DNA from: an uncultured Bdellovibrionales bacterium
GTDB lineage: Bacteria > Bdellovibrionota > Bdellovibrionia > Bdellovibrionales > UBA1609
Length of the DNA stretch: 38,983 bases
Reading direction: 5' to 3'
Assembly (NCBI GenBank): GCA_938001965.1
Contig: CALLBC010000257.1
Location: 1 to 38,983, forward strand
This document shows positions 10,646-38,983 of this stretch, piece by piece. The position numbers and the translations under genes are program-made. Below the pieces are notes generated by a model. It saw only the letters and a list, made by a program, of their open reading frames with translations. It was not told where the DNA came from and searched no databases. The number at the start of each line of letters is the position of its first letter. Within the stretch, counting starts at the first letter, position 1.

Positions 10646-10647
10646 AA

Positions 10648-11580
10648 CTATAAAACCTTAAAGCCACTAAAATGCTCTTTCATAATCTGATTACAAAATT
10701 CTTTTTGATCATCTCTAAATAAAAAATGTACATTTGGCCCTGCATCCATAGTTACTATTGGACCATCTAGTTTATCTTCCCAAACGGACCTTATAATATT
10801 TAGACACTCCATAGTTTTTCCATTCATATAACCAAAGCCCGGCACTGAGGTTTCAAAAAGAGCATGCATGTCCCAAAACTCTGCCCAAGAAACTTGGTAA
10901 GCCTTTTGCCAATCTTTATTTTGAAAAGCTTTTGTTAATTCATGCAAACGAAGCTCTGCCCTCTCAGGGCGACCAGGAAACAATGAGCTACCAGCCACTA
11001 ACTTATGGGCAGCACTTGAAGACACCTTTTTCTCACCATCTTCAACCACTACAACTTTATGAATTAAATTTTTATAGGGAAAATCTTGCTTTTCAATTTT
11101 ACCAGCTTGCCACTTCACCCAACCACTTTCTAAAGAGCGACAAGAAGAACCAGAGCCTTTGGCACTGACCTCACCCAACTCACTCATAGTAAGCGTTTTA
11201 CCGCCTTTATTAAGTGATAACTGGTATGCGGCCTTAGTTAAAGCAGAAAAACTGGAAGCTGAGCTTGCCAAACCACATCCATAAGGGAAGTTATTCGCTG
11301 ACTTCACGGTATAGTTCCCTTCAATATTAAATCTGTCTTTTAAGTAAGACCAAAAGTTCAAAAACCTCTCAACAGACTTTTCAGAAAGATCTATGGCAAA
11401 CTCACTTTCTAATGGAAGCCAATTATCTTTATTATTATTAGAGGATTCAATTTCAACAAAAGTTTTTAAATGATCTATTGACCAAGATAATGAAGAATTT
11501 GTGGGAATATTATTATTTACATCAGTTTTACCCATGTATTTAATTAATGCAATATTTGATGGTGAACTGACTTTAATCAT
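10648..11580 (-). CDS. mvaD: Diphosphomevalonate decarboxylase
   Basis: A GHMP-superfamily enzyme that converts mevalonate 5-diphosphate to isopentenyl diphosphate with ATP, releasing CO2. Diagnostic features are SPSNIALIKYMGKTD at the N terminus followed by IPTNSSLS. GCGLASSASSFSAL serves as the phosphate loop, GSGSSCRSLESGWVKW follows, and the catalytic Asp lies in the TMDAGPN segment near the C terminus. The length of 310 aa is normal. The ATG overlaps the stop of the preceding kinase gene by 4 nt (ATGA), indicating translational coupling. This is the step that distinguishes the classical mevalonate pathway from the archaeal variants. Confidence 0.95.
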   Translation of the reverse strand: MIKVSSPSNIALIKYMGKTDVNNNIPTNSSLSWSIDHLKTFVEIESSNNNKDNWLPLESEFAIDLSEKSVERFLNFWSYLKDRFNIEGNYTVKSANNFPYGCGLASSASSFSALTKAAYQLSLNKGGKTLTMSELGEVSAKGSGSSCRSLESGWVKWQAGKIEKQDFPYKNLIHKVVVVEDGEKKVSSSAAHKLVAGSSLFPGRPERAELRLHELTKAFQNKDWQKAYQVSWAEFWDMHALFETSVPGFGYMNGKTMECLNIIRSVWEDKLDGPIVTMDAGPNVHFLFRDDQKEFCNQIMKEHFSGFKVL

Positions 11581-12479
11581 AACTGCCCCTTTACTTCAAA
11601 AGCAGGGTCCATCTCAACATGCATACCTTCACTAAATTTATTACCACTAAAAATCACTTCTAAATTGTTTGAATTAAAGTATCTCTTTACTTTTTTTGTA
11701 TCCTTAACGGCATGAATAGCTAAAACAGTGTCTGCACCGGCTGCACCACAAGCCTTCACAGCATGAAAGCATGTGGTTTCACTTTTAATCTTAGCCACTA
11801 AAGATCTCGACTCTTCACAAATTAGATTTAGATTGATTAACTCAGCATAATACTGGCTTATCCCTTCAGTAAAATTACTTAAATCTGCACCTTTGAAACT
11901 ATTAACTGTATTTAAACCAATTTGCTCAAGTGTAGTTAAATTATTTAATTTAACGTTCTTTAAATGCTCATGGGTTTTAACATTATTACCTGTACGAATA
12001 ATAGTTACTGCCATTTCAGGAAATGGCCACTCAAGGCGCTCAATAGTTTTGTCGCTTATATTTACATGACAGATCTTGCCATTAAATTGAGATATAACAT
12101 CGTAACCACTTTGTTTAGATTTACTGTAAAATAATAACTTTTCTCTAAAGGCCATTGAGTTAAATAATGGTTTTTTATCAATAATAGTTTTAAGAGCCAC
12201 TAAACCATTGAATTGAGCTCCCGAAGCACCAAAGCCACCTTGCTCCCTATGAGGGTCGTTAAATTCAAAGCTATACTTACTAAAAAGTTCAGAGTTTTCT
12301 AAAAAAAATATTCCAGTAGGGCTATTCGCATGAGGAGTAAAACTATTTTCATCAGTAACGGAGTCAGTTATGGTGTAGCAAAACTCTGGGCCTGTATTTA
12401 ATAATAAAGCCGGGCCCTCATTTAAAGCTACATACTCACCCACTAAAAAAGTTTTACTTGGTATTTTTATTTTTATCAC
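11577..12479 (-). CDS. Probable phosphomevalonate kinase (GHMP family)
   Basis: A 300-aa GHMP kinase-like protein. Motif 1 is present as KTFLVGEYVALNEGPALL. The phosphate-loop position reads GGFGASGAQFNGL, a departure from the usual GLGSSAA. A SGYDVISQFNG segment follows, and the C-terminal motif is CGAAGADTVLAI. The other two GHMP genes are assigned to mevalonate kinase and decarboxylase. Phosphorylation of phosphomevalonate is therefore the missing step and this gene the natural candidate, an assignment partly by elimination. It starts with GTG overlapping the HMG-CoA reductase stop (GTGA) and overlaps the decarboxylase start (ATGA). The divergent P-loop is worth noting. Confidence 0.72.
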   Translation of the reverse strand: MIKIKIPSKTFLVGEYVALNEGPALLLNTGPEFCYTITDSVTDENSFTPHANSPTGIFFLENSELFSKYSFEFNDPHREQGGFGASGAQFNGLVALKTIIDKKPLFNSMAFREKLLFYSKSKQSGYDVISQFNGKICHVNISDKTIERLEWPFPEMAVTIIRTGNNVKTHEHLKNVKLNNLTTLEQIGLNTVNSFKGADLSNFTEGISQYYAELINLNLICEESRSLVAKIKSETTCFHAVKACGAAGADTVLAIHAVKDTKKVKRYFNSNNLEVIFSGNKFSEGMHVEMDPAFEVKGQL

Positions 12480-13777
12480 AGGCTTTCTTTTAGCCTCATT
12501 TCTTTTAAAATCTCAGCAGCTTGTGACGGAGAGATTCGTTTTGTCTCTTTTAAAACTTGCTCCAATCTTTTTTGCAAAATTAAAGATTCACTTTCTTTTG
12601 CACCAGCACCCAAAGCTAAGTTTTTTATATGAAGCTTCATATGCCCTTCAATTATACCTTCAGTGGTTAATGCTTTTAAAGCTCCAAGGTTTTGGATTAA
12701 GCCCACTGAAGCACATATTCTTGATAACTCTTCTGCATTTTGTACACCCAACATTCGTAAGGACATTTGTGCCATTGGATGGAGGCGAGTTACCCCTCCA
12801 ACAACACCTAAAACTAAAGGAGCCTCAAATTTACCGATTAATTTATTACCATCAAAAGACCAAGATGTAATTGAGCGATATTGTCCACTTCTTGCAGCGT
12901 AGGCATGAATTCCAGCTTCGACAGCACGCCAATCATTACCTGTAGCAATTAATATGGGGTCAATTCCATTTAAAACTCCCTTATTATTTGTAGCAGCTCT
13001 ATATGGATCTTGCTGTGCAAAAAGGGAGGCTTCCACTATTTTTTCAGCTAATTTTTTTTCAATATTATTCACTTCAACTCTTGCATGAGTCACTTTGCTA
13101 TCTACTAAATTACTTAAGATACACATAGTCACTGTTTCTCGAGTTAACTCTTCAATGGGTTCTTTTAAATACTCACAGACTTGGTTAACAATATTTGCAC
13201 CCATGGCATCACATGCATCTAAAAATACATGAACAACAGCCATAAATTCGCCATCACCCCGTTCTACAGCGCGAACTGTAATGTCAGTAACACCACCACC
13301 ACGCCTTACTAAGCCATGGGCAACATTTTCGTTGGCCATATCTATAAATTTATTTTTTTCTTCTAAAATTATTTTTTTAAATTTTGCATAGTCAGACACT
13401 TTTGCAACTTGTATTTGACCAATAATTTCTTTACCAACAATATGAGTAGTGATTTTACCATTATCACGCACCCATTTAGCCGTTTTACTAGCGGCGGCAA
13501 TAATTGAGGTCTCTTCCACAGCCATTGGTATTGTATAGGCTTTTTTATCGATTACAAAATTTGTGGCTACTCCCATTGGTAATTGAAAATATCCAATCAC
13601 ATTCTCAATAAATTTTTCCGCCAGTAGCAAGTCCATTTTACAGCCACCGGCTAAGAACTTTTTATCCTCTATACTTATGGCTCCGAGCTTTGTTAAGCGA
13701 TCTAAACGCTCATCAAAACTTAGTTTTGAAAAGCCACTAAAGTACTTTTTTGCTAAATCTAGTTTTTGTTTATCCAT
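12476..13777 (-). CDS. mvaA: Hydroxymethylglutaryl-CoA reductase, class II type
   Basis: Reduces HMG-CoA to mevalonate, the committed pathway step. Family landmarks are ENVIGYFQLPMGVA (with the catalytic Glu), DAMGANIVN, NNKG (catalytic Lys), and the C-terminal EGHMKLH segment carrying the catalytic His. The length (433 aa) and absence of membrane segments match soluble class II bacterial enzymes. I prefer the ATG at 13777, with GGAAAG five bases upstream, over the in-frame GTG at 13783. The start lies inside the end of the IPP isomerase gene (19-nt overlap) and the stop overlaps the next kinase, so the operon is fully coupled here. Confidence 0.96.
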   Translation of the reverse strand: MDKQKLDLAKKYFSGFSKLSFDERLDRLTKLGAISIEDKKFLAGGCKMDLLLAEKFIENVIGYFQLPMGVATNFVIDKKAYTIPMAVEETSIIAAASKTAKWVRDNGKITTHIVGKEIIGQIQVAKVSDYAKFKKIILEEKNKFIDMANENVAHGLVRRGGGVTDITVRAVERGDGEFMAVVHVFLDACDAMGANIVNQVCEYLKEPIEELTRETVTMCILSNLVDSKVTHARVEVNNIEKKLAEKIVEASLFAQQDPYRAATNNKGVLNGIDPILIATGNDWRAVEAGIHAYAARSGQYRSITSWSFDGNKLIGKFEAPLVLGVVGGVTRLHPMAQMSLRMLGVQNAEELSRICASVGLIQNLGALKALTTEGIIEGHMKLHIKNLALGAGAKESESLILQKRLEQVLKETKRISPSQAAEILKEMRLKESL

Positions 13778-14814
13778 TTCCACTTTCCATCTAATTGGCT
13801 CAACGATTCACTACCTGTACAAAACATGGCAATCTTTAATTCATGCTCTAAAAGATTCATATAACTAATTAACTGAGCTTGCCCTTTTATTGCCGCTTGC
13901 AAAATAGGCCTAGCCAAACCCACGGCCCCTGCTCCCATAGCAATAAACTTGGCAACATCTAAACCAGTGCGCACACCACCGGAGGCCCAAATTGAATAAT
14001 TGGGATCTATAGATATGGCAGACATCAAAGATGATAACGTGCTCTCCCCCCAATTAGAAAATGTCTGAGAAGCTATGCTAGACATTTGTGAGTTTATGTC
14101 TGTTCTATCTTCAGCTCTTAAGCCCTCTACTCTTCCCCAATGTGTGCCGCCATAGCCACTTAAGTCAACAGCTTGAATGTTTGTGGATTTTAATTTTAAT
14201 AGTGTTCCCACAGAAAAACCACAGCCAGTTTCTTTGACAATCACTGGGACTGACAAGCTTTCACTAATTAATCTAATTTTATCAAGACCACCTTTAAAAT
14301 TAGTAGTTCCTTCTGGCTGAATGGCCTCTTGTAATGGGTTTAAATGAATAATTAAACCTATGGCATCAATGGATGTAACTAGAGACTCTAGACTATCCAA
14401 ATTGCACTCAATAGCCTGAGCAACACCGATATTGGCTAGCATTTTTAAATTTGGATGTTTTGCTTTAATGTCTTTCCACTCATTAGCCGCGCTATCATCC
14501 ATTAGCTGTCTACGCTGAGACCCCACTGCAAATAACCAATTCTTCTGTTCACAAGCAGAGGCAAAACTATCATTTAGTTTTTTTCCTTCAGAGTGACCAG
14601 CTGTCATGGAAGATACATAAATTGGTGATGAGAACATATGCCCTAAAATATTTTTAGATATATTAATTTCTGAAAAATTAATATCGGGCAATGCTTCGTG
14701 CACCAAAGCAATCCCTTGTAATTTATTATTTGAGACATCGACGTGGTTGTTTAAACAATGGCTGATATGATCTTTTTTTCGTTGCTCAAAATCTTTAAGA
14801 TTTTCTGGTTCCAT
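13759..14814 (-). CDS. fni: Isopentenyl-diphosphate isomerase, type 2 (FMN-dependent)
   Basis: Interconverts isopentenyl and dimethylallyl diphosphate using FMN and NADPH. Recognisable pieces are FEQRKKDHI near the N terminus, ISKNILGHMFSSPIYVSSMTAG, VGSQRR, HLNPLQEAIQPEG (substrate and Mg site), VIVKETGCGFS, VDLSGYGGTHWGRVE, and the FMN phosphate-binding ASGGVRTGLDVAKFIAMGA. Two starts are possible. The ATG at 14844 has no ribosome binding site and sits at the end of a terminator U-run. The ATG at 14814 follows an AAAGG, giving 351 aa, and I annotate that one. This is the first gene of the mevalonate operon. Confidence 0.95.
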   Translation of the reverse strand: MEPENLKDFEQRKKDHISHCLNNHVDVSNNKLQGIALVHEALPDINFSEINISKNILGHMFSSPIYVSSMTAGHSEGKKLNDSFASACEQKNWLFAVGSQRRQLMDDSAANEWKDIKAKHPNLKMLANIGVAQAIECNLDSLESLVTSIDAIGLIIHLNPLQEAIQPEGTTNFKGGLDKIRLISESLSVPVIVKETGCGFSVGTLLKLKSTNIQAVDLSGYGGTHWGRVEGLRAEDRTDINSQMSSIASQTFSNWGESTLSSLMSAISIDPNYSIWASGGVRTGLDVAKFIAMGAGAVGLARPILQAAIKGQAQLISYMNLLEHELKIAMFCTGSESLSQLDGKWKWINKN

Positions 14815-14845
14815 AAAACCTTTAAGCCCTTTAACTCTACTCATT

Positions 14846-16053: not shown

Positions 16054-17286
16054 TTAATTAATCTTTACATTCATATGAGTAACAATACTTGGGTTATAGT
16101 GAGACGGCCTTATTGAATCACTAGCAATATCAATTAAATCATCACCTAAGTAATCTTGCACTTTCGCAGTTAAGGTTAATTGTGGTAAACGCCCAGCCAC
16201 CTTACCGTTTTTCATTAAAAATCCAAATTGCACTGGAGTTGAAAAACTACCATCATCAGTGAAGTCGCCACCAGCAGCCAGCTCAACAACTAAACATTCA
16301 GGTAAATCCGCTAAAATCTCACTAATGGACTTACTTCCCGGACCAATATAAACTTTATTAAAACCAATTTGTGGCGAAGAGTTATAACTACGCATTCCGT
16401 TACCAGTGCTTTGCATATTATATAGCTTTGCATTCCTAGCATCACAAACTAAATTAGAAAAAACACCTTTTTCAAACAAACTTAAAGATGGATCCTCTCT
16501 TAAAAAACCTTCCCCATCAAATGCACGCAAAGCGCTAACTTCAGGATTATAAGAGATATCAAAAATATTTAATTTTTCATTTAAAACTTTTTCACCAAGC
16601 TTACCCTTAAAAAGACCAACGCCTTTATGATACATATTGGCTTTATGCCCTGAGATAGCTTTTGATGTGATCATCTCTGAACCAGTAAATACAACCGGAA
16701 GCTTGCCTTCTTTTAAGTTTACAACGGTTTCGTAACACTCAAGGTAAGGGGCATAGTTACTAATTGTTTTTTCAAAATCTAGTTTACCCACTTCCATAGA
16801 TTCAAAGTAACTATCCATAATACCAGTTGAACTTTCATGCTTATAAATAATCTCAGATCGGCTAATATCATAGCTGTTAGTCATTGCCGTCCCATCAATA
16901 CTCATATTAGTTTGGTTTGAGTAGGTTGCCACATTGCCACTAAAAATAAATTTTGGAAAATTCTTAGTTAAATAGTTTAATGACTTAGTGGCTACCTCAT
17001 AGGCAGAATCAAACTCATTATTCAAAAATTGTACTTTTTTACTTACTGCCTTTGGTGCTGTTAATTCATAATCAAATGGCAAACTACCTAGCTCATTGCC
17101 AAGAGCCTGACTTATTAGTTTATCATCATCTATTTCTCCAATATTAGATGCCGAATAAACATTATTATCTTTGAAAACTCGAGCCCCTTTTTTGACAATG
17201 TTTTTATTCTTAACAGATACAATTTTATTACCTGCAATCTCAATTTTTTTCTCTTTAGTGTTATAACTTAATATTTCTTTTCTCAT
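16054..17286 (-). CDS. TldE/PmbA-like protein, first pair
   Basis: A 410-aa member of the TldD/PmbA family, the partner that forms a heterodimer with TldD. It lacks the HExxxH zinc motif, as expected for the TldE side. Conserved traits are the central VFTGSEMITSKAISGHKANMY region and the C-terminal GGDFTDDGSFSTPVQFGFLMKNGK block. The gene starts 3 nt after the stop of the TldD gene, so the pair should be made in equal amounts. TldD/TldE proteases degrade unfolded peptides and process CcdA or microcin B17 in Escherichia coli. The substrate here is unknown. Confidence 0.88.
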   Translation of the reverse strand: MRKEILSYNTKEKKIEIAGNKIVSVKNKNIVKKGARVFKDNNVYSASNIGEIDDDKLISQALGNELGSLPFDYELTAPKAVSKKVQFLNNEFDSAYEVATKSLNYLTKNFPKFIFSGNVATYSNQTNMSIDGTAMTNSYDISRSEIIYKHESSTGIMDSYFESMEVGKLDFEKTISNYAPYLECYETVVNLKEGKLPVVFTGSEMITSKAISGHKANMYHKGVGLFKGKLGEKVLNEKLNIFDISYNPEVSALRAFDGEGFLREDPSLSLFEKGVFSNLVCDARNAKLYNMQSTGNGMRSYNSSPQIGFNKVYIGPGSKSISEILADLPECLVVELAAGGDFTDDGSFSTPVQFGFLMKNGKVAGRLPQLTLTAKVQDYLGDDLIDIASDSIRPSHYNPSIVTHMNVKIN

Positions 17287-17289
17287 AAA

Positions 17290-18663
17290 CTAACTCACCA
17301 TCATATTATTAATTAAAATACTTGGACCACCATCATTCACAGGTAAAGGCGCTTGATCCCCCTTACCACAGCCACCAAAAGCTGAATTTTCTAGTAAGTA
17401 GTCATCGCCACATGCGTCTATATTATTTAAAGTTTCCATCATATCACCGGATATCACCGAAACTCTTATTGGCTCAGCAATTTTACCATTTCTAATCATG
17501 TAGCTTTTTCTAGGAGCAATTGTAAATGTACTTAAACCACTACCGTGGTTATAGTCTTTTATCAAAATACCTTCACCGGTTTTTTTAATCATATCTTCAA
17601 ACTTATCTTTACCAGGCTCCACATAGGTACTTGTCATTCGCACAATTGGCTCATATTCAAAATTAATTGCTCTACCGTTACCTGTTGGTGCTTCGTCTAA
17701 CACTTGTGATGTGTATTGTGAATGAAGTCTTCCAGTTAAAATCCCATCCTTTATTAGGTAGGTCTTCTTTGTAGGGAAACCTTCATCATCAATTGGACAA
17801 TAACCCGTACCGGTGCTGTCGGCCCCATGATCTACAATGGATACACACTCATTAGCAACCCTCTCCCCTAACTTCCAACTTTCTTTCATTTTAGGGTCTC
17901 CTAACATAAAATCAGCCTCTGACTTATGCCCAAAAGATTCATGAGCAAACACACCCACAACATGGCTTTCCATAACTACTTTATATGACCCTGCCTCCAC
18001 ATTTTTAGCATCTAAAAACAAATGGGATTCTTCCATAGCTTTTTTAATTTTATTTTCCTTGCCTGCGAAGTCTGATAAATCCTGGCCATAGAACATAATT
18101 AAATCTGAAAATTGATTATCACCCTCAGTCAAAGTATAACTTATTGCCAGACCAATATTTTGCACATCATAAGAAAATTCAACACCTTCAGAAGATATAA
18201 AAAACTTTTCTTTATACTTGTCTGTATAGTAAACGTTAATTTTACTCACTTTTTCAAATTTTTTAATCTCGGGAAAATAACTTTCAGCTAACTTCTTTTT
18301 ATCTTCAATGGAAACCTTAGTGATTTCTTTACCAGAAAAATTATTAATATGCTTAGCGTAGGAGTTTTGATTATAAGGTTTTAAATTATAATCTTCTTTA
18401 TTTCCTTCAAATTTTTTAGCATCTATAGCTAAGCTAATTATAGTTTCAGTTAAATCTGTTAAATTCGTAGTTGAGGAGTAATGCCACATACCTTTTTCAA
18501 AAACTCTAATAAAGGCACCCAAAGAAGGTTTAGTGTCACAAGCTACGATCTCATAGTTGTCATAGTTAATACTTGTAACCACTTCGTTTTCAATTCTAAC
18601 ATCCCAATACTGACAAGTGTCTGCTGGCACGTTGATAGATTTTAAAAGTTCGTTATAGTTCAT
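17290..18663 (-). CDS. TldD-like zinc metalloprotease, first pair
   Basis: A 457-aa metalloprotease subunit of a TldD/TldE heterodimer. The zinc motif HExxxH is at H241-E242...H246 (AHESFGHKSEADFMLGDP). The third ligand is probably the Cys in the C-terminal GCGKGDQAPLPV block, as in E. coli TldD. AAGGAG lies five bases upstream of the ATG, and a good promoter lies 45-75 bp upstream. The transcript should carry tldD-tldE only. A second, dissimilar TldD occurs at 32.8-34.2 kb, so this genome has at least two such systems. Confidence 0.9.
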   Translation of the reverse strand: MNYNELLKSINVPADTCQYWDVRIENEVVTSINYDNYEIVACDTKPSLGAFIRVFEKGMWHYSSTTNLTDLTETIISLAIDAKKFEGNKEDYNLKPYNQNSYAKHINNFSGKEITKVSIEDKKKLAESYFPEIKKFEKVSKINVYYTDKYKEKFFISSEGVEFSYDVQNIGLAISYTLTEGDNQFSDLIMFYGQDLSDFAGKENKIKKAMEESHLFLDAKNVEAGSYKVVMESHVVGVFAHESFGHKSEADFMLGDPKMKESWKLGERVANECVSIVDHGADSTGTGYCPIDDEGFPTKKTYLIKDGILTGRLHSQYTSQVLDEAPTGNGRAINFEYEPIVRMTSTYVEPGKDKFEDMIKKTGEGILIKDYNHGSGLSTFTIAPRKSYMIRNGKIAEPIRVSVISGDMMETLNNIDACGDDYLLENSAFGGCGKGDQAPLPVNDGGPSILINNMMVS

Positions 18664-29968: not shown

Positions 29969-30172
29969 ATGGGACACCCAATAGAAACATATGAACCGAC
30001 CCAAGAAGAAAAGTATGACCATTACATTGAAATGCAGAACCACTGCCCGCTTTGCAACAGTGAACTTAACATCAAGGTAACCTCTTATTTAGAAAATAAC
30101 ACGATCAAAGAAGAGGCTTATTGCGAAAGCTGCAATATCAAAACACGTAGCAAAGACCACAAATACCACTAA
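29969..30172 (+). CDS. Small zinc-ribbon protein, 67 aa
   Basis: A cytoplasmic small protein with two CxxC pairs (CPLC at about 29-32 and CESC at about 52-55) spaced as in a zinc ribbon, an acidic N terminus and a His-rich C-terminal tail (DHKYH). The function is not known. Zinc ribbons of this size bind RNA or DNA or serve as RNA polymerase or ribosome accessory factors. The gene is supported by a good TAGGAG about eight bases before the ATG, and by its own terminator 22 nt after the stop. It is divergent from the chalcone-isomerase-like gene. Confidence 0.82.
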   Translation: MGHPIETYEPTQEEKYDHYIEMQNHCPLCNSELNIKVTSYLENNTIKEEAYCESCNIKTRSKDHKYH

Positions 30173-30193
30173 GAACTGTCAAATTTTTAGCAC

Positions 30194-30223
30194 AAAAAGA
30201 GTCAATAATTTGGCTCTTTTTTT
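30194..30223. terminator. Intrinsic terminator after the zinc-ribbon gene
   Basis: A 12-bp stem with one G-U pair (arms 30194-30205 and 30210-30221, loop of 4), then a T-run, on the plus strand. The A-run at the other end lets it also serve the convergent minus-strand gene ending at 30250. Confidence 0.85.
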
Positions 30224-30249
30224 ATGTCCAAAACAAATTGTGGTTTGGT

Positions 30250-30696
30250 CTAGTTGAAAGAGCACCTAGCGATTTCTCTTCCGTGTGCTAACATAACAAC
30301 TTCACCTAACACAGATAAATCTGGTGAGATCCCTACGCGAGCTGAATACTTATGTATAGTTTGGTGGATAATGGTTTCGTTACTATATAAAAGTCTATCG
30401 CTCTCTCCCTCTATTAAGGGTATAGAATAACCGATGGTAAATTCCATACCATATGTTTCCCAACCCCTTGAAAAAAAGTCGTTCACAGAATCAAGCTTTT
30501 CGTCTGAAAATCTAAACTTTAATTGCAGTGGTGCTGTACTGCTGTCAGGCTGAAAAATTAAAACAGCACAGGACTGTAGAGGCTTCTTAGACTTTAAGTG
30601 CTTACCACTAACATTATATGATACAGCCTCTTGAATAGATGCTAATGTTTGGAAAGAAAACAAAATAAGAAAAATGCTTATAAATAATTTGTACAA
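30250..30696 (-). CDS. Exported hypothetical protein with TTG start, 148 aa
   Basis: Function not recognised. It begins with TTG preceded by a strong GGGAGG five bases upstream, which decides the start. It has a signal peptide of about 19 residues (ending TLA), then a mostly beta domain with two Cys (CAVLIFQ and CSFN at the C terminus) that could form a disulphide. A role in the periplasm is likely. It ends 26 nt from the bidirectional terminator at 30194-30223. A 7-bp hairpin (30805-30811/30817-30823) lies in the 288-bp region upstream, which otherwise shows nothing convincing. Confidence 0.7.
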   Translation of the reverse strand: MYKLFISIFLILFSFQTLASIQEAVSYNVSGKHLKSKKPLQSCAVLIFQPDSSTAPLQLKFRFSDEKLDSVNDFFSRGWETYGMEFTIGYSIPLIEGESDRLLYSNETIIHQTIHKYSARVGISPDLSVLGEVVMLAHGREIARCSFN

Positions 30697-30984
30697 TTCG
30701 ACCTCCCTAAGCTTTTATTAACTTTGTTGTACATAAAAACAACCAATCAAAGCAAATAGTGCTTAAAAGGATGTAATCTTTATAATGTAAGCACTCGTAA
30801 ATCATTTGCTTTCTTTAAGCAAAACCAATTTGATTCCCACGAGTAATCCCGTGGTACTCTGTTTTCGACCACATAGATAAAAAATAATTAATAGTTTTAT
30901 ATTTACACCAAAAAAACAAATACCGCCCTTAACAAAAGATCTTGCTATATAATGAGACTGTAAAATAGGAGCTAATTAAAGTTT

Positions 30985-31374
30985 TTAGTCTTGATTATTA
31001 GAACTAACATAAGCAAAGTCCCAATAAGTATCCAAAACATCACCACTCATGGGGTCTATTCTTACAACGTACCGAGAAGATGAACTAACAGGAGTTATTG
31101 TTACTACATATAAACACTCCCTCTTAAAGAAATCCACTTGAGTTTCAACCTTAGTGATATCTTTAGAAAACAACTTTGCCAGGTCATGTTCAAAGTTGCC
31201 GTTGAATGTTCCTAACTCTTTGTGTTGCTTATCATTTAATGACTCATGAGTATAACTAACTCCAGCCAATAACACCGCTGTATCTTCAGAAATTGCAAGA
31301 GGGCAATACTTAGTTTGCGCTAACGAGAGTTGACTAAATAAAATTGAGAATAAAATAACAAATGTAAATTTCAT
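30985..31374 (-). CDS. Exported hypothetical protein, 129 aa
   Basis: Function not recognised. An upstream in-frame start (31425) is possible, but the ATG at 31374 is preceded by GGGAG. It opens directly on a signal peptide (MKFTFVILFSILFSQLSLAQ), so I choose it. The mature part is about 110 residues with two Cys (YCPL and ECLY). It contains a VVTITPVSSSSRYVVRIDPMSGDVL segment resembling small PepSY-like beta domains that sit in the periplasm, a weak resemblance only. It follows the second TldE gene by 80 bp on the same strand. Whether it belongs to that operon is unclear. Confidence 0.7.
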   Translation of the reverse strand: MKFTFVILFSILFSQLSLAQTKYCPLAISEDTAVLLAGVSYTHESLNDKQHKELGTFNGNFEHDLAKLFSKDITKVETQVDFFKRECLYVVTITPVSSSSRYVVRIDPMSGDVLDTYWDFAYVSSNNQD

Positions 31375-31454
31375 AAATATATCTCCCATACTATTTTTTA
31401 GTAAATAGACATGCCCAAGACTCAAAGCAAGGACATGCCATTACACATAAAAAA

Positions 31455-32804
31455 TTACAGTGTAAAATTAAACTTGTTGATTAAAGCCCCTGGCGCACTA
31501 CTGCCGCCTATGTAGCGTTTATCATAAGTCATTGTATTAGGGTTAATTTCTGACTCTTTAGTGAAGTCATTAAGCTCAGAGCCGAAGCAGTTATATAAGC
31601 TCTCATCAAACCTTAAATCTTTTATAGGCCCAACGATCTCACCATCTTCTACCCAAAAGCAGGCAAAGCGAGTCATACCTGTAATCCTTGCACTCATGCG
31701 GTCACTCCAATTTAAATAATGTAAATTAGATAAGTAGAGTCCAGTTCCTAATTCTTTTAAGACATCCTCTTGTGATAAGTTACCAGGCTTAATTACTGGA
31801 GAGCCAAGCATCTCATAATCATTAGCTTGATTAGATGGCACGTTAAACTCTGCCGATGATTTTGAAGACACTAACAATGTTTTTAGTTCTCCATTTTCAA
31901 TTAAGTTTAATTTGTTCGCTCTCACCTCGCCTAATTCATTAAATTTTGGTGATAAGCCTAATTCAAAATTTTCTTGTAAACTAAATTTTGGCGACAAAGA
32001 CTCTTTACCTTCTTTTAACTTAGCAAAGGCGCAGTACCCTTGCTTGAAAGCGGACATACTCAAAGAACCCCACGACATGGTGCCTAAAATTTCACTAACA
32101 GCACCAGGAGCCAAGTATGTTCTATGTGCGCCAGGCTTAACATTAACCACTGGTAAATCCATTTTAGTTAATAGTTGTTTTGATGTTTCAATATTAGCTA
32201 AATACTTTTGGCTATCCCATTTACTTCCGGCATAACAGTTTTTCACTGCCTTTTGCTTAGCTGAGTAAAGTGAGTAATCAAAATAAAAAGTATTGGATGT
32301 AAACCAATGCTTTAAACCTTTTGAGTTATATACCCCCTCACTCACAGGCCCTGATACAAAAATCCCTGCCATGTCCACATCTTGCAATGGAGCAAGAACT
32401 TCAGTGGTTACATCAATAAGGCTAGCCGCTTCTGTTTCAATAATTTGAGAGCTATCCGTCCCGGCCTGTGGCAAAACTACACTTTGGCTTTCTGGTAAGT
32501 TTTCAGCATCTTGCTTACAATCCGCAATTAACTCTAAGCCTAGCTTTAAATCCACTGACTCATCAAAACTAATATTCATTGATTTTGATAGTGACCGATT
32601 ATTTTTAATAAAAGTTAGACCAATAGCATTTTGGGAAACATTAGTTGCTTGTCTTAGTTTTGACTGGTTAAACCTATAAAACTGAGTCTCTTCACCACTG
32701 TATGAAATCGTTAAGTGCTCATCACTTGCCAAGGCTGCAACTAATTTTTCACTAAGGCTATAAAAATACTTTTCTTGTTTTTTAATTTTATCAAACACAG
32801 ACAT
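31455..32804 (-). CDS. TldE/PmbA-like protein, second pair
   Basis: A 449-aa TldD/PmbA family protein without the HExxxH motif, so the non-zinc partner. Conserved sections are VYNSKGLKHWFTSNTF in the N-terminal half, KPGAHRTYLAPGAVSEILG in the middle, and the C-terminal LNWSDRMSARITGMTRFACFWVEDGEIV segment. Its ATG overlaps the TldD stop by one base (TAATG), so the two subunits are coupled in translation. It differs clearly from the first TldE in this window, including length. It is the last member of a four-gene operon with a transporter and a membrane protein. Confidence 0.88.
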   Translation of the reverse strand: MSVFDKIKKQEKYFYSLSEKLVAALASDEHLTISYSGEETQFYRFNQSKLRQATNVSQNAIGLTFIKNNRSLSKSMNISFDESVDLKLGLELIADCKQDAENLPESQSVVLPQAGTDSSQIIETEAASLIDVTTEVLAPLQDVDMAGIFVSGPVSEGVYNSKGLKHWFTSNTFYFDYSLYSAKQKAVKNCYAGSKWDSQKYLANIETSKQLLTKMDLPVVNVKPGAHRTYLAPGAVSEILGTMSWGSLSMSAFKQGYCAFAKLKEGKESLSPKFSLQENFELGLSPKFNELGEVRANKLNLIENGELKTLLVSSKSSAEFNVPSNQANDYEMLGSPVIKPGNLSQEDVLKELGTGLYLSNLHYLNWSDRMSARITGMTRFACFWVEDGEIVGPIKDLRFDESLYNCFGSELNDFTKESEINPNTMTYDKRYIGGSSAPGALINKFNFTL

Positions 32805-34228
32805 TACTTACCTCCACCAAAAACTTCAATATTAGAAAATAAAGCCGTGGGAACTGCATGCCCTACTCGAATAACTTGGTTTGGCTCACCTTTACCACAA
32901 TAAAAACTTCCAGATACTTCCATAGTACTTTCATCACCCAACATTTTTAAATTCGTCCAAAATGGTGTGCATTGTCCACGATAGTTAGGGTTTTTTACAA
33001 CTTTAGTTAGTTTTCCATTTTCAATAAGTTGTCCGTACTCACAACCAAACTGGAATTTGTCGCGATAATCATCAATTGACCATGACCTATTGGCTTTCAT
33101 CAAAATCCCTTTTTCGGTAGCGCTAATCATATCAGCCATGGTTGATGTCCCAGTTTCCACATTAATATTGGCCATTCGATCAATAGGCGGCCTGTTCCAT
33201 GACTGCATTCTAGCACAAGAAACACCATCCACACCTAAACGAGCCTGGCTTTCTAAACTTCCAATCCCAGCCACTAGCTTTCCACCTTTAATTAAATATT
33301 TCTTCTCAGCCTTTGCGCCCGTATCATCAAAGTCATAGGATGCCAGCTCACTAGTTATGGTTGGATCAAAAGTAACATTTAAAAGTTCAGAGCCGTACTG
33401 TAATGTTCCAAAGTCTTCTTTATTTAAAAAACTCCAGCCAGCGTAATTTCGTTCATCACCTAAAATTCTATCAAGCTCAAGTGGGTGTCCAATAGATTCA
33501 TGCACCTGCAAATACATTTGGTCTGGGGTGATCATTAAATCACGAGTGTCTGATGGGCAGTTTTCTGCATTTAATATTTCATTGAGCTCTCTAGAGATTT
33601 CAATGGATTGTTGTTTCAAACTATCCTTATTAAAATAATCTAAACCAAATTGACCAACTTGCCCCCCGTTAGAACGGGTTTGGTTGTCGCCATTAAGCGA
33701 CGCTGCCATTCCTAAATCTAAAGTGCATTGTGTGAGCTTTTGATGGTAATCAGAACCATTACTACTTAAAAATAAAGTTTCAGTATCAGAAACAATGGTC
33801 CTTGCACTACGGCTCATTAATTGGGCATCACCACTTACAGTCATAAACTTTGTAGCATTCACTAGGTTATCAGCAATTTCATAGATACTTGATTTATCAA
33901 ATTGAGTTTTCACCTGGCTTGAGTACGTACCAACAGCCTTAGGCCTTTGCTCCATACTAAAATTATATAAATTCCATTTTTCATTTTTTAGAGCCTGTTC
34001 AGTGGCCTGATCAAAAGCTCTTTGTATGGAGTCAAAACTTAAATCATTAGTAGCAACAAATGAAAACTGACCATTAACTAAAACTTCGGCCATGACCCCA
34101 TTGTCATAACCTGTATTAATACCATCTAATTTCTCATCTCTAACAGATAAACTGGTTTGAGTTTGGTTGATATGGCGCAATCCCCACCAATCAGCTTTTA
34201 CATTTAGTTTTTTAAATATATCACGCAT
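32804..34228 (-). CDS. TldD-like zinc metalloprotease, second pair
   Basis: A 474-aa TldD. The zinc motif is H243-E-S-I-G-H248 (VHESIGHPLELDRILGDE) and the C-terminal YCGKGEPNQ block holds the probable Cys ligand. A GGAAGG ribosome binding site sits nine bases before the ATG, which follows the stop of the membrane-protein gene directly. The partner TldE starts on its stop. Compared with the first TldD, only the motif neighbourhood and general plan agree on inspection, which suggests separate orthologous groups rather than a recent duplication. Confidence 0.9.
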   Translation of the reverse strand: MRDIFKKLNVKADWWGLRHINQTQTSLSVRDEKLDGINTGYDNGVMAEVLVNGQFSFVATNDLSFDSIQRAFDQATEQALKNEKWNLYNFSMEQRPKAVGTYSSQVKTQFDKSSIYEIADNLVNATKFMTVSGDAQLMSRSARTIVSDTETLFLSSNGSDYHQKLTQCTLDLGMAASLNGDNQTRSNGGQVGQFGLDYFNKDSLKQQSIEISRELNEILNAENCPSDTRDLMITPDQMYLQVHESIGHPLELDRILGDERNYAGWSFLNKEDFGTLQYGSELLNVTFDPTITSELASYDFDDTGAKAEKKYLIKGGKLVAGIGSLESQARLGVDGVSCARMQSWNRPPIDRMANINVETGTSTMADMISATEKGILMKANRSWSIDDYRDKFQFGCEYGQLIENGKLTKVVKNPNYRGQCTPFWTNLKMLGDESTMEVSGSFYCGKGEPNQVIRVGHAVPTALFSNIEVFGGGK

Positions 34229-35377
34229 TTATAAAACCTTCCTTTTAGTAATTAAGTTAGTCATATAGCCTACACTCACAGCCATTAAACAAAGTAAAAT
34301 TATATATCCAAGCACTGGTATAAACATTAATAATTCAAAAATTAAAAAGCCAACAATAAGATATAAATATTTAGATCTTTTTACCGCACCATCAGCAAAC
34401 TTCTCAAACACTTTATACCCTAAATAAGCACAAATCAGCCCATAGCCTAGCATTCCCATTATATAAAACAAAAATGAGTAAATAGGAACTATGGCTAAAC
34501 CCACCACTGTTACGGTCAACACAAACATAATAAATGGCATTAAACAAAAATGAATTAAACCTATAAAGCCTTCATAGGCCCACTTTTCATGGCGGCTAAA
34601 TAAATTTTCACTAATATAGGGTACCACCTTAAAGCCAAGCCAAAATAAAAATATTACTTGAATAAAACGCACAATAACCATCATTAGTTTTGCACCAGAA
34701 GAACTAAAGTTAGAAAAGTTACCTAAATCGCCAGAGAAATTAAAGTTATCTAACATTCCTGATTTGTTAGTGGTAACAAACCCGCCTTGATCCACCTGTA
34801 AGGTCCCAGAAAGCTCAGTGATTTTATCTGTTATTTTGCCATTTGGGCCCACATTCACTGTGCCCTTTATTAAAATCAAAGTACCCACATCACCATTAAT
34901 TTTAACAGTTCCACCAGTAACAATGAGAGTATCAACTAACTCTCCCTCTTCCACCACATATTCGTCATCTTTATTAACGACAACAAAGCCTTTTGTATCA
35001 AAAACTTGTATTTGTGAATTATCGTCATCGGTTACTTCAATATCTACCTTGTTTTTTCCGTCATCAACTTTAATAGAAACCACATTTTTATGACTCATTA
35101 TACTTTTAGATATTTTACTCTTTAAATCTTCCAAACTCTCCTTGTTTTGATCAAAGGCAATTGTACTTTTTTTAATTGAGCTAGAAAGAATTTTATTTGA
35201 TAAACTATCATCAATTAGTATTTCAGTTTGTAAAACCTTTAGCCCTTCAGCTAAGCTTTCATCTTCTGACAAATCATTAATTTTTAACTTACCATTGCCC
35301 CACTGGATTTCCACATCTGCAAAGGCTAAGTTAACAAAAAACAAACTTATGATTAGCAGTAATATTTTTTTAATCAT
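34229..35377 (-). CDS. Exported/membrane protein with bactofilin-like strand repeats
   Basis: A 382-aa protein of unknown function. A signal peptide (about residues 1-20) precedes a charged, partly helical region (about 25-125). Next comes a strand-rich segment at about 140-200 with spaced Gly and hydrophobic residues (TLIVTGGTVKINGDVG, TLILIKGTVNVGPNG, ITELSGTLQVDQGG), like the right-handed beta-solenoid turns of bactofilins. Four or so transmembrane helices fill the C-terminal third (about 228-375). Polymer-forming domains fused to membrane helices occur in envelope proteins. The ATG overlaps the stop of the MFS gene (4 nt, ATGA), and its own stop abuts tldD, so it belongs to that operon. 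Confidence 0.72.
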   Translation of the reverse strand: MIKKILLLIISLFFVNLAFADVEIQWGNGKLKINDLSEDESLAEGLKVLQTEILIDDSLSNKILSSSIKKSTIAFDQNKESLEDLKSKISKSIMSHKNVVSIKVDDGKNKVDIEVTDDDNSQIQVFDTKGFVVVNKDDEYVVEEGELVDTLIVTGGTVKINGDVGTLILIKGTVNVGPNGKITDKITELSGTLQVDQGGFVTTNKSGMLDNFNFSGDLGNFSNFSSSGAKLMMVIVRFIQVIFLFWLGFKVVPYISENLFSRHEKWAYEGFIGLIHFCLMPFIMFVLTVTVVGLAIVPIYSFLFYIMGMLGYGLICAYLGYKVFEKFADGAVKRSKYLYLIVGFLIFELLMFIPVLGYIILLCLMAVSVGYMTNLITKRKVL

Positions 35378-36525
35378 TTATGACTCCTTAAACCATATTT
35401 TTTATCAAATACAAAAAGTGAAATAATACAGATTAAAATTAATAGTGGCGAAACCAATAATGCCTTGCTCACGCTAAACATATCAGTGAATACACCTAGC
35501 GCGTAATGAAAAATTAAGACCGTTAAAGATGTCATCGACATAACTTGCGCCATTATTTTGGGCGACTGATTTTGGTAAACTTCAGCAATATAATCCATAT
35601 TTAAAGCGTAACAAGGAGCCATGGTTACACCACAAAAAACTAAAAACCATGGGTTTACAAATAAACCCAGCAGAAAGCTCACTAATGAAACAAAATGACA
35701 AATTAGTAGTAAGTTGGCAGCACTTACTTTTTGAAAGCTCACAAAAGTAAAAAACACTCTGCCAATAAAAAGGAGTAAAAAGAAGTAAGTTACATATTTA
35801 GTGGCCTCAGAAAGTGGCATTGCGTGTTCAGTTGTCAATAATTGAGTTATTCTTGTGGCAATACTAATTTCTGCACTCACATAAAAAGCCACAATAATAC
35901 AAATTAAAAATAATGATGTTCTTGAGTTGGCATTTAATTCAAAAACATCTTTACTAATAATTTTCATAGCATGATCTTTTTTTGAATATAAAAACATGAC
36001 CACAAACAAAAAGCACACCACAGCTACACCGACCAAAGAGAATGCAAACAAAGTGTCACGCCAACTATAGTTATTTTCTAAAGCCCAATGTATTAAAAAG
36101 GGAGCAACTACCGAGGCAAAGGCATAAATTGCATGCAAACCAGAGAGCCACTTCCTACGAGAATTTTCATCGGCTGCTTTTTGAATGGCCACATGTTCAA
36201 ACACTGAAGTAACACCAAGACCAAAACCGAACATCCCCAGGGATAAAGCCACGAAATTAAAAGAAGGCGACATACTAAAAAATAAATAGCCTAATGCCAT
36301 CAAAATGGTCCCCAAAAATAAACCTTTAATGCTGGCTATGGACTGAACAAAGTACTTGGCTAAATAGCTACCAATGAATGAAAAAAAGGACGGAACCACA
36401 AAGACTAATGAGCCCACAGAGCTATTTAATTTAAAATCAGCTAAAATTTGAGGATATAGCGGGCCACGTGAGTTATCTAAAAAACCTAAAACAAACAAAC
36501 TTAAATATGAACAGCTAATGAGCAA
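35374..36525 (-). CDS. Major facilitator superfamily transporter
   Basis: A 383-aa, about 12-helix inner-membrane transporter. The first helix is followed by LDNSRGPLYPQI, and there are Gly-rich helices (SLGMFGFGLGVTSVFEH, FVVPSFFSFIGSYL) of the MFS plan. Closest in style to sugar or drug-type permeases, but the substrate is unknown. The start is uncertain. TTG at 36525 has weak spacing, while a CTG at 36543 lies five bases after AAGGGGAA and adds a positively charged N terminus. It heads a tight operon with the beta-solenoid membrane protein and TldD/TldE, so export or import of a peptide-derived product is one idea, not shown. Confidence 0.85.
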   Translation of the reverse strand: MLISCSYLSLFVLGFLDNSRGPLYPQILADFKLNSSVGSLVFVVPSFFSFIGSYLAKYFVQSIASIKGLFLGTILMALGYLFFSMSPSFNFVALSLGMFGFGLGVTSVFEHVAIQKAADENSRRKWLSGLHAIYAFASVVAPFLIHWALENNYSWRDTLFAFSLVGVAVVCFLFVVMFLYSKKDHAMKIISKDVFELNANSRTSLFLICIIVAFYVSAEISIATRITQLLTTEHAMPLSEATKYVTYFFLLLFIGRVFFTFVSFQKVSAANLLLICHFVSLVSFLLGLFVNPWFLVFCGVTMAPCYALNMDYIAEVYQNQSPKIMAQVMSMTSLTVLIFHYALGVFTDMFSVSKALLVSPLLILICIISLFVFDKKYGLRSHK

Positions 36526-36895
36526 CAGGCCTAAACGACTCAGGAATTCCCCTTTTATATGGAGTTAAAATAGCCCTAGAACATACCCTACTCAACTGCC
36601 CTTGTTAAATTAATCTCAATATTTTTAATTTAAATCTTCTTAAATTGATTAGATTTCTGTGAGTTCTCTTGTCTCTTTACTGAGCAAAGCAATCACTCAA
36701 AACACAATCCCTAGTGATTTCAATGACCTAGAATCCTTTATAGACAATGGTTTCCCGACTTAACATTTTTTCTTAATGTTTAAAATCCTTTGCAACCTGA
36801 GTATAATAAACAGTATATTGGCGCCATATCTGGGGGCAGTGATTTGGTGGGGACTAAACCTATATACTCCCAGGCTAACCATTAAGGGAAGTCTT
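36526..36895. other. Divergent intergenic region MFS / outer-membrane barrel
   Basis: About 370 bp without a supported gene. It contains the barrel promoter at 36779-36807 and about 90 nt of barrel mRNA leader. An ATG at 36776 opens an in-frame extension of the barrel gene, but it lies upstream of the predicted transcription start and adds 40 residues ahead of a normal signal peptide, so I leave it out. Confidence 0.6.
36779..36807 (+). promoter_or_regulatory. Predicted promoter of the outer-membrane barrel gene
   Basis: TTTAAA (36779-36784) and a perfect TATAAT (36802-36807) with a 17-nt spacer. Transcription would begin near 36814, leaving a leader of about 80 nt and supporting a start at 36896. 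Confidence 0.5.
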
Positions 36896-38410
36896 ATGAG
36901 CAAGTATCTATTTCTGTTATTTTCAATATTACCAATGAGCCTTATGGCCGCTGAATCTTCAAGTGTTTCATTTGACGACGTACACCGTGCGGTAACAACT
37001 AATTTAAAACTTAAAAAAGCTAAGCCTAGAAAAAAGAAGTTGAAAACATTTTATGTGGATTACGCTCGCTACGAAGAAAACATTTATGCCCGCTCAAGCA
37101 AATATGAAATTGGCGATCAAATGGAGTTGGATTTTTCTGCTCGCTGGAACTTAACCCCAAAAACACATATGAAGTTTGGTTTTGAAATTGACCCTGATGA
37201 AAAGTCTCTAACGGCTGGTAGTGAATCCAAAGCGCAAAAGTTTGACATGTTCTTTAACCATAAAGTGGGTAATTTTACAGTACAAGCAGAACTTGAGCTG
37301 GATACCAATACTAAAAATGAAAAAGCCGACGCTAGTGTCGATTTTGGCGGAATTAGCCTTGGTTTAGACAATGACTCAGATGGAAGTTACATTTCTTACA
37401 GTGCTTTTGACGGCGTCATGGATTTTACTTTTTTCCCATTCAATTTTAATAGTGAAGTGGGTGATGAGTTCAATAGCTGGGATGTGGCTAGACTTTACTA
37501 CATTGATGGCGCTCCATCTTCAATTAAAAGCTCCCCTTTTAGTAATGAAACTTTAAAGTTCAAAACCATTCCTGGTGCATCAATCACCTTTAGGCCTGCT
37601 AAAGATCTATTTTTTCGTGTGGGTGGTGGTGTAACATCTTACCTTTACCCTTCTAACCCTAACTTTGATATTTCAAACACGACCACTTCAAACTCTTGGG
37701 AACGTAGACAAGATGTGGGAATTAAAGCCTCTGCTGGTTATATAAATAAAAACTTTCGTATTCTTGGTGAGTACGCCGTTCATGACAAAGACAAAGAAAC
37801 CGGATCACTTTTAAAAGCCGCCGGTTCATTAACTAGTGCTGTTTTAATTAAAAACTTAATCTTAAGTGGTGAAGTTGGGATGTCACAAGCTGGCCGAAAC
37901 CCATATCGTGTAAAAAATGGTGGTGGCTGGTTTGAAGACGAAGCTCCTTTTCACCCTGTTTACTCAAGTGTTAATGGCAAACCCCATAGCTGGATAGGAT
38001 CCACTGACTATGCCTATATGGCTAAAGTTGGTTACCGCTTTGGTAAAAGCTTTGTTCCTTATGTCTTTTATAAGTTTCAAGGTGAAGATTATATTTTTAG
38101 AGACAATGAGTCAGCCCACAAACTTCGTAACTTTAATGACGAACTCTCTCATGGTGGTTTAGAGCGCATTGGTCTTGGTGCTCAATTTCAAGTTAATAAC
38201 TTTACAGTGCGTCCAGACATAGAGTTCCGCAGAGCTAAAAACGATGTATTCAATAGAAGTGCTGGCATACAAGATGAAAAATTTAATACCGGTTACAGAA
38301 AAAATGATTTTGCACTATCACTAGTGGTTTCTTATAGTTTGAATGACTCAAGCTTATGGGGCTGGTGGAAAGACCAAGGAGAAGGTAATTATGGCAAAAC
38401 TTATAAGTAA
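36896..38410 (+). CDS. Outer-membrane beta-barrel (porin-like) protein
   Basis: A protein of 504 aa from this start. A signal peptide (MSKYLFLLFSILPMSLMAAE) follows AAGGGAA, which decides the start. The N-terminal 30 mature residues are Lys-rich (KLKKAKPRKKK). The rest is an array of amphipathic beta strands with turn residues and many aromatics, typical of a 16-18-stranded barrel. Examples are MELDFSARWNLTPKTHMKFGFEID, VQAELELDTN, MAKVGYRFGKSFVPYVFYKFQG and FALSLVVSYSLND. It is probably a porin or substrate-specific channel in the outer membrane. The next gene starts inside its last 20 bases, so the two are coupled. The substrate is unknown. Confidence 0.78.
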   Translation: MSKYLFLLFSILPMSLMAAESSSVSFDDVHRAVTTNLKLKKAKPRKKKLKTFYVDYARYEENIYARSSKYEIGDQMELDFSARWNLTPKTHMKFGFEIDPDEKSLTAGSESKAQKFDMFFNHKVGNFTVQAELELDTNTKNEKADASVDFGGISLGLDNDSDGSYISYSAFDGVMDFTFFPFNFNSEVGDEFNSWDVARLYYIDGAPSSIKSSPFSNETLKFKTIPGASITFRPAKDLFFRVGGGVTSYLYPSNPNFDISNTTTSNSWERRQDVGIKASAGYINKNFRILGEYAVHDKDKETGSLLKAAGSLTSAVLIKNLILSGEVGMSQAGRNPYRVKNGGGWFEDEAPFHPVYSSVNGKPHSWIGSTDYAYMAKVGYRFGKSFVPYVFYKFQGEDYIFRDNESAHKLRNFNDELSHGGLERIGLGAQFQVNNFTVRPDIEFRRAKNDVFNRSAGIQDEKFNTGYRKNDFALSLVVSYSLNDSSLWGWWKDQGEGNYGKTYK

Positions 38411-38983
38411 GTTATTTTTAGTTTTTATATTAAGTTTGGCGGCTGCTTCTTGCAGCGAAGATATAGATCCCTCAAACAGCACCACAGAGGTGAGTAAAGA
38501 GTTTACTCCTGCTGCCAACTCCATTGAAGAGCTACAGGATGAAATATCCAACAATGTTATTTTAGGTTCCTCAGACAATCGTAGCAGAAACCAAACTAAA
38601 ATCTACTTAGTCGATTTAAAAAACTTACTAACTTACCTGTCTAGCTACCCTAACGACAAACAAGCCATTGTTCGTGCGCTTAAGACGGCAAAAAACTTAG
38701 AAGAGCTGCCTTTGCCAATTGCTGATCGCGCTCGAATAGACCCAGTTATTCAGCAGTACACGGCCATAATTGCTAAACATGCCAAGTCAAAAAGTGTTGA
38801 TATCAGCGATATAAACTGGAGAATATTCAGTTATGATTTTAATGATGGTTTAAAGCCTTTTTGGACGCAAGCCTCTAAAAGCACTTGGCTAACTACTGAT
38901 GGTAACGCTGTTAACCCTCAAACTAAAGCCACAGCCCGTGCCTCTAAGTTTGACCCCAATAAAGCATGGCTAGTTTCCCCTCA
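38391..38983 (+). CDS. Lipoprotein, partial, with choice-of-anchor-J-like domain
   Basis: Runs off the window's right edge; about 197 codons are visible. The N terminus is a lipoprotein signal (LFLVFILSLAAASCSED) with a Cys at about residue 21 as lipidation site. A helical region spans about 25-135. The last visible part (FSYDFNDGLKPFW... then KAWLVSP) has the look of a choice-of-anchor J or cleaved-adhesin type domain, in which FDFN...W and WLVSP are recurrent. The gene overlaps the barrel gene by 20 nt with GAAGG seven to eight bases before the ATG. It is probably an outer-membrane-attached partner of the barrel, exposed at the surface or in the periplasm. Confidence 0.82.
   Translation, partial: MAKLISKLFLVFILSLAAASCSEDIDPSNSTTEVSKEFTPAANSIEELQDEISNNVILGSSDNRSRNQTKIYLVDLKNLLTYLSSYPNDKQAIVRALKTAKNLEELPLPIADRARIDPVIQQYTAIIAKHAKSKSVDISDINWRIFSYDFNDGLKPFWTQASKSTWLTTDGNAVNPQTKATARASKFDPNKAWLVSP

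Follow-up and report, generated by a model that had tools for sequence, protein, structure and literature searches.

Can a shared function be read from four genes that overlap or abut? The question is raised by a 38,983-nucleotide contig of an uncultured Bdellovibrionales bacterium (GenBank assembly GCA_938001965.1, contig CALLBC010000257.1, here C257 of the 3.55 Mb draft genome G000; the whole stretch is called the window), in which genes for a major facilitator superfamily (MFS) transporter, a membrane protein with a predicted beta-solenoid, and the two subunits of a TldD/TldE-type peptidase lie in a row on the minus strand. A preliminary description had taken them for a possible peptide-processing and transport module. 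We put at roughly 85% the probability that they are a lineage-specific juxtaposition, in which a tldD-tldE pair (tldDE) entered a variable slot, and not a dedicated peptide-processing machine. Tight spacing alone is no proof of a functional module, since a widespread, self-contained peptidase pair can sit operon-like behind unrelated genes.

Gene layout and the variable slot

The four open reading frames (ORFs) are present where the preliminary description had placed them, and its MFS, TldD and TldE assignments are backed by Pfam (MFS_1; PmbA_TldD domains). The cluster's peptidase pair is called TldD2/TldE2 here, as the window contains a second pair. Lengths are in amino acids (aa).

35374..36525, minus strand: MFS transporter, remotely TsgA-like, 383 aa, TTG start; Pfam MFS_1; a conserved resident of this neighbourhood in the family
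34229..35377, minus strand: solenoid membrane protein, 382 aa, with a signal-peptide-like N-terminus, a short predicted beta-solenoid and C-terminal membrane helices
32804..34228, minus strand: TldD-type metallopeptidase subunit (TldD2), 474 aa, second copy in the window; assigned by Pfam, residues and fold
31455..32804, minus strand: TldE (PmbA)-type partner without HExxxH (TldE2), 449 aa; Pfam PmbA_TldD_3rd, 7.2e-25

The junctions were likewise confirmed from the sequence: the MFS and solenoid genes share a 4-base ATGA overlap, the solenoid gene meets tldD with a 0-base gap, and tldD and tldE overlap by 1 base (TAATG). Given this tight spacing and an order kept in the diverged congener G003, joint transcription of the four genes is plausible, and the run would probably use the promoter of the MFS gene. 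Promoter-like sites showed no excess over shuffled sequence (17 against 22.8) and terminator-like sites numbered 5 against 3.5, counts so near the shuffle level that they are uninformative on transcript ends; Rfam and tRNA scans of the window returned nothing.

Fifty-eight sources were laid out, of which 10 show no TldD (L055-L058, fetched for other genes, and L035, L121, L124, L129, L145 and L154, dropped because automatic ORF selection chose a conflicting frame instead), leaving 48 TldD loci, two rows of which are duplicates (L033 = L125; L034 = L147). The preliminary description had made a functional link depend on conservation of the neighbours outside this genome; such conservation is largely lacking, as the gene order does not extend beyond the genus. 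It was found in 2 of the 48 loci, those of G000 and of its congener G003 (L054), whose solenoid protein and TldD are 44% and 66% identical to those of G000, and it is absent from a second congener, G002 (L055, in which the slot is uninterrupted), and from every other genus examined. These three genomes belong to genus g1 of family f1. Whatever the surroundings, tldE stands directly 3' of tldD (-100 to +32 bases) in 44 of the 48 loci.

The remaining features around the four genes are as follows.

36776..38410, plus strand: F7, divergent gene, 544 aa; no Pfam match; in another genus, members of its family are linked with the solenoid gene
30985..31425, minus strand: secreted-looking ORF of 146 aa, placed between the zinc-ribbon gene and tldE; nothing over cut-off in Pfam
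30250..30696, minus strand: secreted-looking ORF of 148 aa; no Pfam match
29969..30172, plus strand: zinc-ribbon-like gene of 67 aa, convergent, closing the slot at its far end; match to Zn_ribbon_Elf1 below the cut-off (E 4.3e-4)

The MFS and zinc-ribbon genes bound the slot. Homologues of the two proteins occur in 38 and 45 of 58 relatives, respectively, and their layout was compared within family f1, where 27 genomes have the MFS gene and 24 have both genes, 9 of these 24 on different contigs. In all 15 genomes with both on one contig the two genes are convergent, and the interval between them ranges from 20 to 10,739 bp with variable content. Nothing lies between them in G006, G011, G024 and G029 (gaps of 79, 163, 20 and 102 bases), and outside the family they are not close, as in G042 and G047.

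In G002, G009, G021 and G035, which represent four genera, the solenoid and zinc-ribbon genes are directly adjacent and tail to tail; tldDE sits exactly between these two genes in G000 and G003. Extra unrelated ORFs accompany it in the slot, of 146 and 148 aa in G000, neither of which matched any other fetched locus, and of 244 aa in G003. At the G002 locus a chalcone-isomerase-like gene, the zinc-ribbon gene, the solenoid gene, the MFS gene and F7 stand in line without tldDE, and that genome holds no TldD2 orthologue at E <= 1e-60. Four other solenoid loci are of no help for or against an insertion: the contig ends beside the gene in G025, another ORF comes after it in G007, and an ORF of 562-570 aa separates a solenoid-like gene from the zinc-ribbon gene in G023 and G034. 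Further ORFs, of 638-654 aa, occupy the slot (window 30173-35373) in G008, G010, G014 and G027, and the slot is possibly a gene-insertion spot in family f1.

Two observations on the bordering genes may be added. The MFS gene of G002 (L055 5469-6625) is broken over two frames with its remaining sequence well conserved, which is either a recent-looking disruption or an assembly error. In G023, tldD is immediately preceded by a weaker zinc-ribbon homologue (37%; L066 441-611) of the same orientation.

Distribution and history of the pair

A single entry of tldDE is the simplest history because of three features, namely the MFS/zinc-ribbon slot, the abutment of the solenoid and zinc-ribbon genes in four genera, and the position of tldDE exactly between the latter two. 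In the proposed sequence of events, the convergent TsgA-like MFS and zinc-ribbon genes of family f1 enclose contents varying from nothing to several genes, the solenoid gene occupies this slot in genus g1 directly behind the MFS gene, and in the G000/G003 lineage a self-contained tldD-tldE pair would have entered between the solenoid and zinc-ribbon genes in the same direction. It is quite unlikely that tldDE was instead ancestral at this position and repeatedly lost. The TldD2 proteins of G000, G003, G025 and G035, all of the same family, do form a group (support 98/92), which is compatible with vertical descent, but in G035 the junction is empty and tldDE lies on a different contig, and independent loss or relocation would be needed in four genera.

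The wider distribution of the genes was also compared. A TldD2 orthologue occurs in 11 of the 58 relatives; at E <= 1e-60, 65 of 140 genomes of the order and 127 of 368 genomes of the phylum carry a member of the subfamily, and one family, f8, accounts for 57 of the latter. Solenoid homologues are rarer, with 12 of the 140 and 20 of the 368. In the phylum, TldD2 is present in 7 of the 20 genomes with the solenoid protein and in 120 of the 348 without it (p 1.0; 7 observed, 6.9 expected), and in the order the corresponding numbers are 5 of 12 and 60 of 128 (p 0.77). The two proteins are thus independent across order and phylum, and each of the three components (the TldD/TldE pair, the MFS gene and the solenoid gene) also turns up where the other two are missing. 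Five other genomes have both the solenoid protein and TldD2, with the genes on different contigs.

Several points weigh against this reading. The four-gene order persists in two diverged species, and the F7 tree does not settle which of the three congeners, G000, G002 and G003, split off first, so that tldDE may have been gained in the ancestor of the genus and then lost in G002. No trace of a mobile element was found around the tldDE insert, which is flanked by only short, imperfect repeats. Within the 36 genomes of family f1, moreover, TldD2 accompanies the solenoid protein in 5 of 10 genomes against 1 of 26 without it (p 0.0035), and by genus in 3 of 6 against 1 of 20 (p 0.028), both figures ignoring kinship and genome size. 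The TldD2 of G023 groups with a genome of another family (support 100/99), which suggests that one of the three f1 genera concerned may be an independent acquisition.

The weak association within family f1, together with the tight junctions and the same order in G003, is also what speaks for a real module, in which TldD/TldE would trim a peptide, the MFS protein would carry it and the solenoid protein would hold the system at the inner membrane. We regard such a module as very unlikely, since the order is absent outside the genus and in G002, the MFS gene is far more widespread than TldD2 (38 against 11 of the 58 relatives), co-occurrence disappears in the order and phylum, and no precursor ORF is conserved. 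The neighbourhoods of other pairs point the same way. In family f8 the location of the pair is stable, about 20 loci sharing the same flanking families. Judged by their sequences, these flanks are probably a glycine dehydrogenase, an EpmA/GenX-like protein and a coiled-coil protein rich in Lys and Ala; so read, they contain nothing that points to peptide export. Outside f8, 25 pairs contributed 89 neighbours to a Pfam scan (of 94 proteins, five short or edge-cut ones being left out), in which no family was found in more than 3 proteins, among the 25 commonest of 106 families. MFS_1 matched 2 of these neighbours, the number contributed by the two genus g1 genomes, and the families shown include none for transport, the envelope or peptide modification that is found repeatedly next to TldD/TldE elsewhere. 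The module of the preliminary description finds no backing in the comparative evidence. As judged from its listing, a literature search on TldD in Bdellovibrio turned up only an unrelated survey.

Highly improbable, in our estimate, is a narrower form confined to genus g1, in which TldD/TldE would have come to share a transcript with the MFS carrier and with the membrane protein, whose beta-solenoid would be periplasmic. The trimming of peptide fragments that arise in the cytosol and their transfer through the inner membrane would then be controlled jointly. If this were true, the fragments might stem, for example, from envelope turnover or from protein that was imported or digested.

The peptidase pair and the solenoid protein

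TldD2 and TldE2 are a genuine TldD/TldE-type peptidase pair, and the pair is a diverged member of that group in a lineage-specific setting. In TldD2, Pfam domains PmbA_TldD_1st (E 4e-10) and PmbA_TldD_3rd (E 1.7e-29) are both over cut-off and domain 2 reaches 15.9 bits against a cut-off of 20.9; in TldE2, domain 3 alone is matched. The residues H243, E244 and H248 (HESIGH, 243-248), E251, D253, C444 and K446 of TldD2 are invariant in 13 of 13 orthologues, all of which carry HESIGH or HESVGH, position 246 varying once. None of 14 TldE rows has HExxxH, as expected of an inactive partner. According to PMC5810440, the zinc ligands of Escherichia coli TldD are His262, His267 and Cys454, and Cys454 and Lys456 tether a clamp, the lysine via Glu270 and Asp272. 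The spacing of C444, K446, E251 and D253 in TldD2 agrees with that of C454, K456, E270 and D272 in the E. coli protein. The predicted model of TldD2 (predicted local distance difference test, pLDDT, 80.9) superposes on E. coli TldD (5nj5_A) with a Z score of 29.1 over 438 residues at 3.7 A.

The pair thus resembles the E. coli TldD/TldE (PmbA) heterodimeric metalloprotease in the HExxxH motif and cysteine of TldD, the conserved Glu, Asp and Lys around the site, the absence of the motif from TldE and the fold of TldD. It differs in that TldD2 has about 22% identity over the aligned structure, marking a diverged subfamily, and in that the two genes are adjacent. The NCBIfam equivalogs of E. coli type stay far from their cut-offs (TldD 66.9 of 513 bits, PmbA 22.5 of 438), and the best curated full-length match of TldD2 is archaeal TldD (NF040952, residues 6-465), at 98.4 bits against a cut-off of 635. 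Its named relatives come from Pseudobdellovibrionaceae, Oligoflexia and Bdellovibrionales metagenome-assembled genomes. The locus also documents a diverged TldD/TldE subfamily that spans about a third of the phylum's sampled genomes, the 57 of family f8 among them.

By analogy with E. coli, zinc would be held by the two histidines of HExxxH and the C-terminal cysteine, and TldD2 with its inactive TldE partner would form a closed cytosolic heterodimer that admits unfolded polypeptides and cuts them down to short peptides. It is most likely that the pair works as its E. coli counterpart does. A second, diverged TldD/TldE pair, absent from the preliminary description, lies in the window at 17290-18663 and 16054-17286; its TldD is 24% identical to TldD2, has HESFGH intact and scores 223 of 635 bits with NF040952.

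The MFS protein matches Pfam MFS_1 (E 6.4e-20) and aligns at full length with the transporter TsgA (NF002982, E 6.6e-14), although with 51.8 bits against a cut-off of 221; a PDB sequence search with it gave no match.

The solenoid protein had been described as having bactofilin-like repeats. A short solenoid is indeed predicted: the model, of modest confidence (mean pLDDT 67.6), has a helix resembling a signal peptide, roughly four turns of paired strands over residues 128-195, and helices at the C-terminus. The bactofilin part of the description is backed only weakly, as Pfam Bactofilin (PF04519) is touched by 2 of 7 solenoid homologues with a best E of 0.059, under threshold. The protein itself has no family over threshold in Pfam, NCBIfam or phage families, and membership of the bactofilins by sequence was rejected at the PF04519 cut-off. 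A Foldseek search with the model gave no PDB match at E <= 0.001, the bactofilins 6rib and 2n3d appearing at E 2.1 and 2.8 with a model of this pLDDT. The likeness to bactofilins lies in the short predicted beta-solenoid; the signal-like N-terminal helix and the several C-terminal membrane helices set the protein apart, and no significant match to bactofilins was obtained by sequence or, with this model, by fold. A PDB sequence search with the solenoid profile gave chance-level matches only, a plasmid search with the protein gave none, and the phage-family search matched neither it nor the 146-aa ORF nor the F7 protein. No transmembrane bactofilin gene of such kind was found for Bdellovibrio in the literature, as judged from listings.

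The solenoid gene has more lasting company in F7 (no family), F8 (weak DUF5017) and F17 (endonuclease/exonuclease/phosphatase family) than in TldD/TldE. In genera g1 and g23 these three stand close to the solenoid gene as a conserved run (window 36776-38983; L054 9872-15637; L072; L190); they adjoin it in G025 (L072) and are also seen for G035 (L069, L190).

The search for a peptide product

The preliminary description had also raised the prospect of short precursor-peptide genes nearby. Outside the four genes, 44 ORFs of 20-160 aa were examined between 28401 and 36899, and none is conserved with the pair. Conservation as a gene is seen only for the zinc-ribbon gene, whose occurrence does not track tldDE; the other short ORFs with matches read the antisense strand of that gene or of the ends of tldD and tldE. 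No peptide-modifying enzyme family was matched among the four genes and the scanned neighbours, which are part of the window's genes, and whole-genome searches for YcaO and MNIO found matches only on other contigs. With no conserved precursor among these ORFs, YcaO and MNIO matches on other contigs and no recurring family among the neighbour families shown, a peptide natural-product module at this locus was rejected.

E. coli TldD/TldE processes microcin B17, but it is unlikely that the pair likewise acts on a ribosomally synthesised and post-translationally modified peptide (RiPP) whose gene lies elsewhere in the genome. The genome does have an MNIO beside a 116-aa secreted-looking ORF that contains cysteine, as well as a SagD-like YcaO-type protein of 276 aa (51.8 bits, under the 219.25 cut-off), but both are on other contigs. 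A larger YcaO protein, over cut-off for TIGR03549 (1165 bits) and NF040716 (858 bits), fits by these matches the RimO-accessory type and not a RiPP enzyme. The spread of TldD2 over about a third of the phylum's genomes suggests a general role, and none of the YcaO proteins and MNIO is tied to TldD2/TldE2.

In their own right, these loci may be placed as follows. The MNIO (PF05114, 265.8 bits; L199 3248-4921, G000:C250) stands directly after the 116-aa ORF and before one of 172 aa, an arrangement that may resemble bufferin-type clusters. The 276-aa YcaO-type protein (L159 2651-3481, G000:C239) has no obvious RiPP neighbours. Elsewhere in the window, at 9758-14844, lies a gene run that, judged by its sequence, resembles a mevalonate-pathway cluster.

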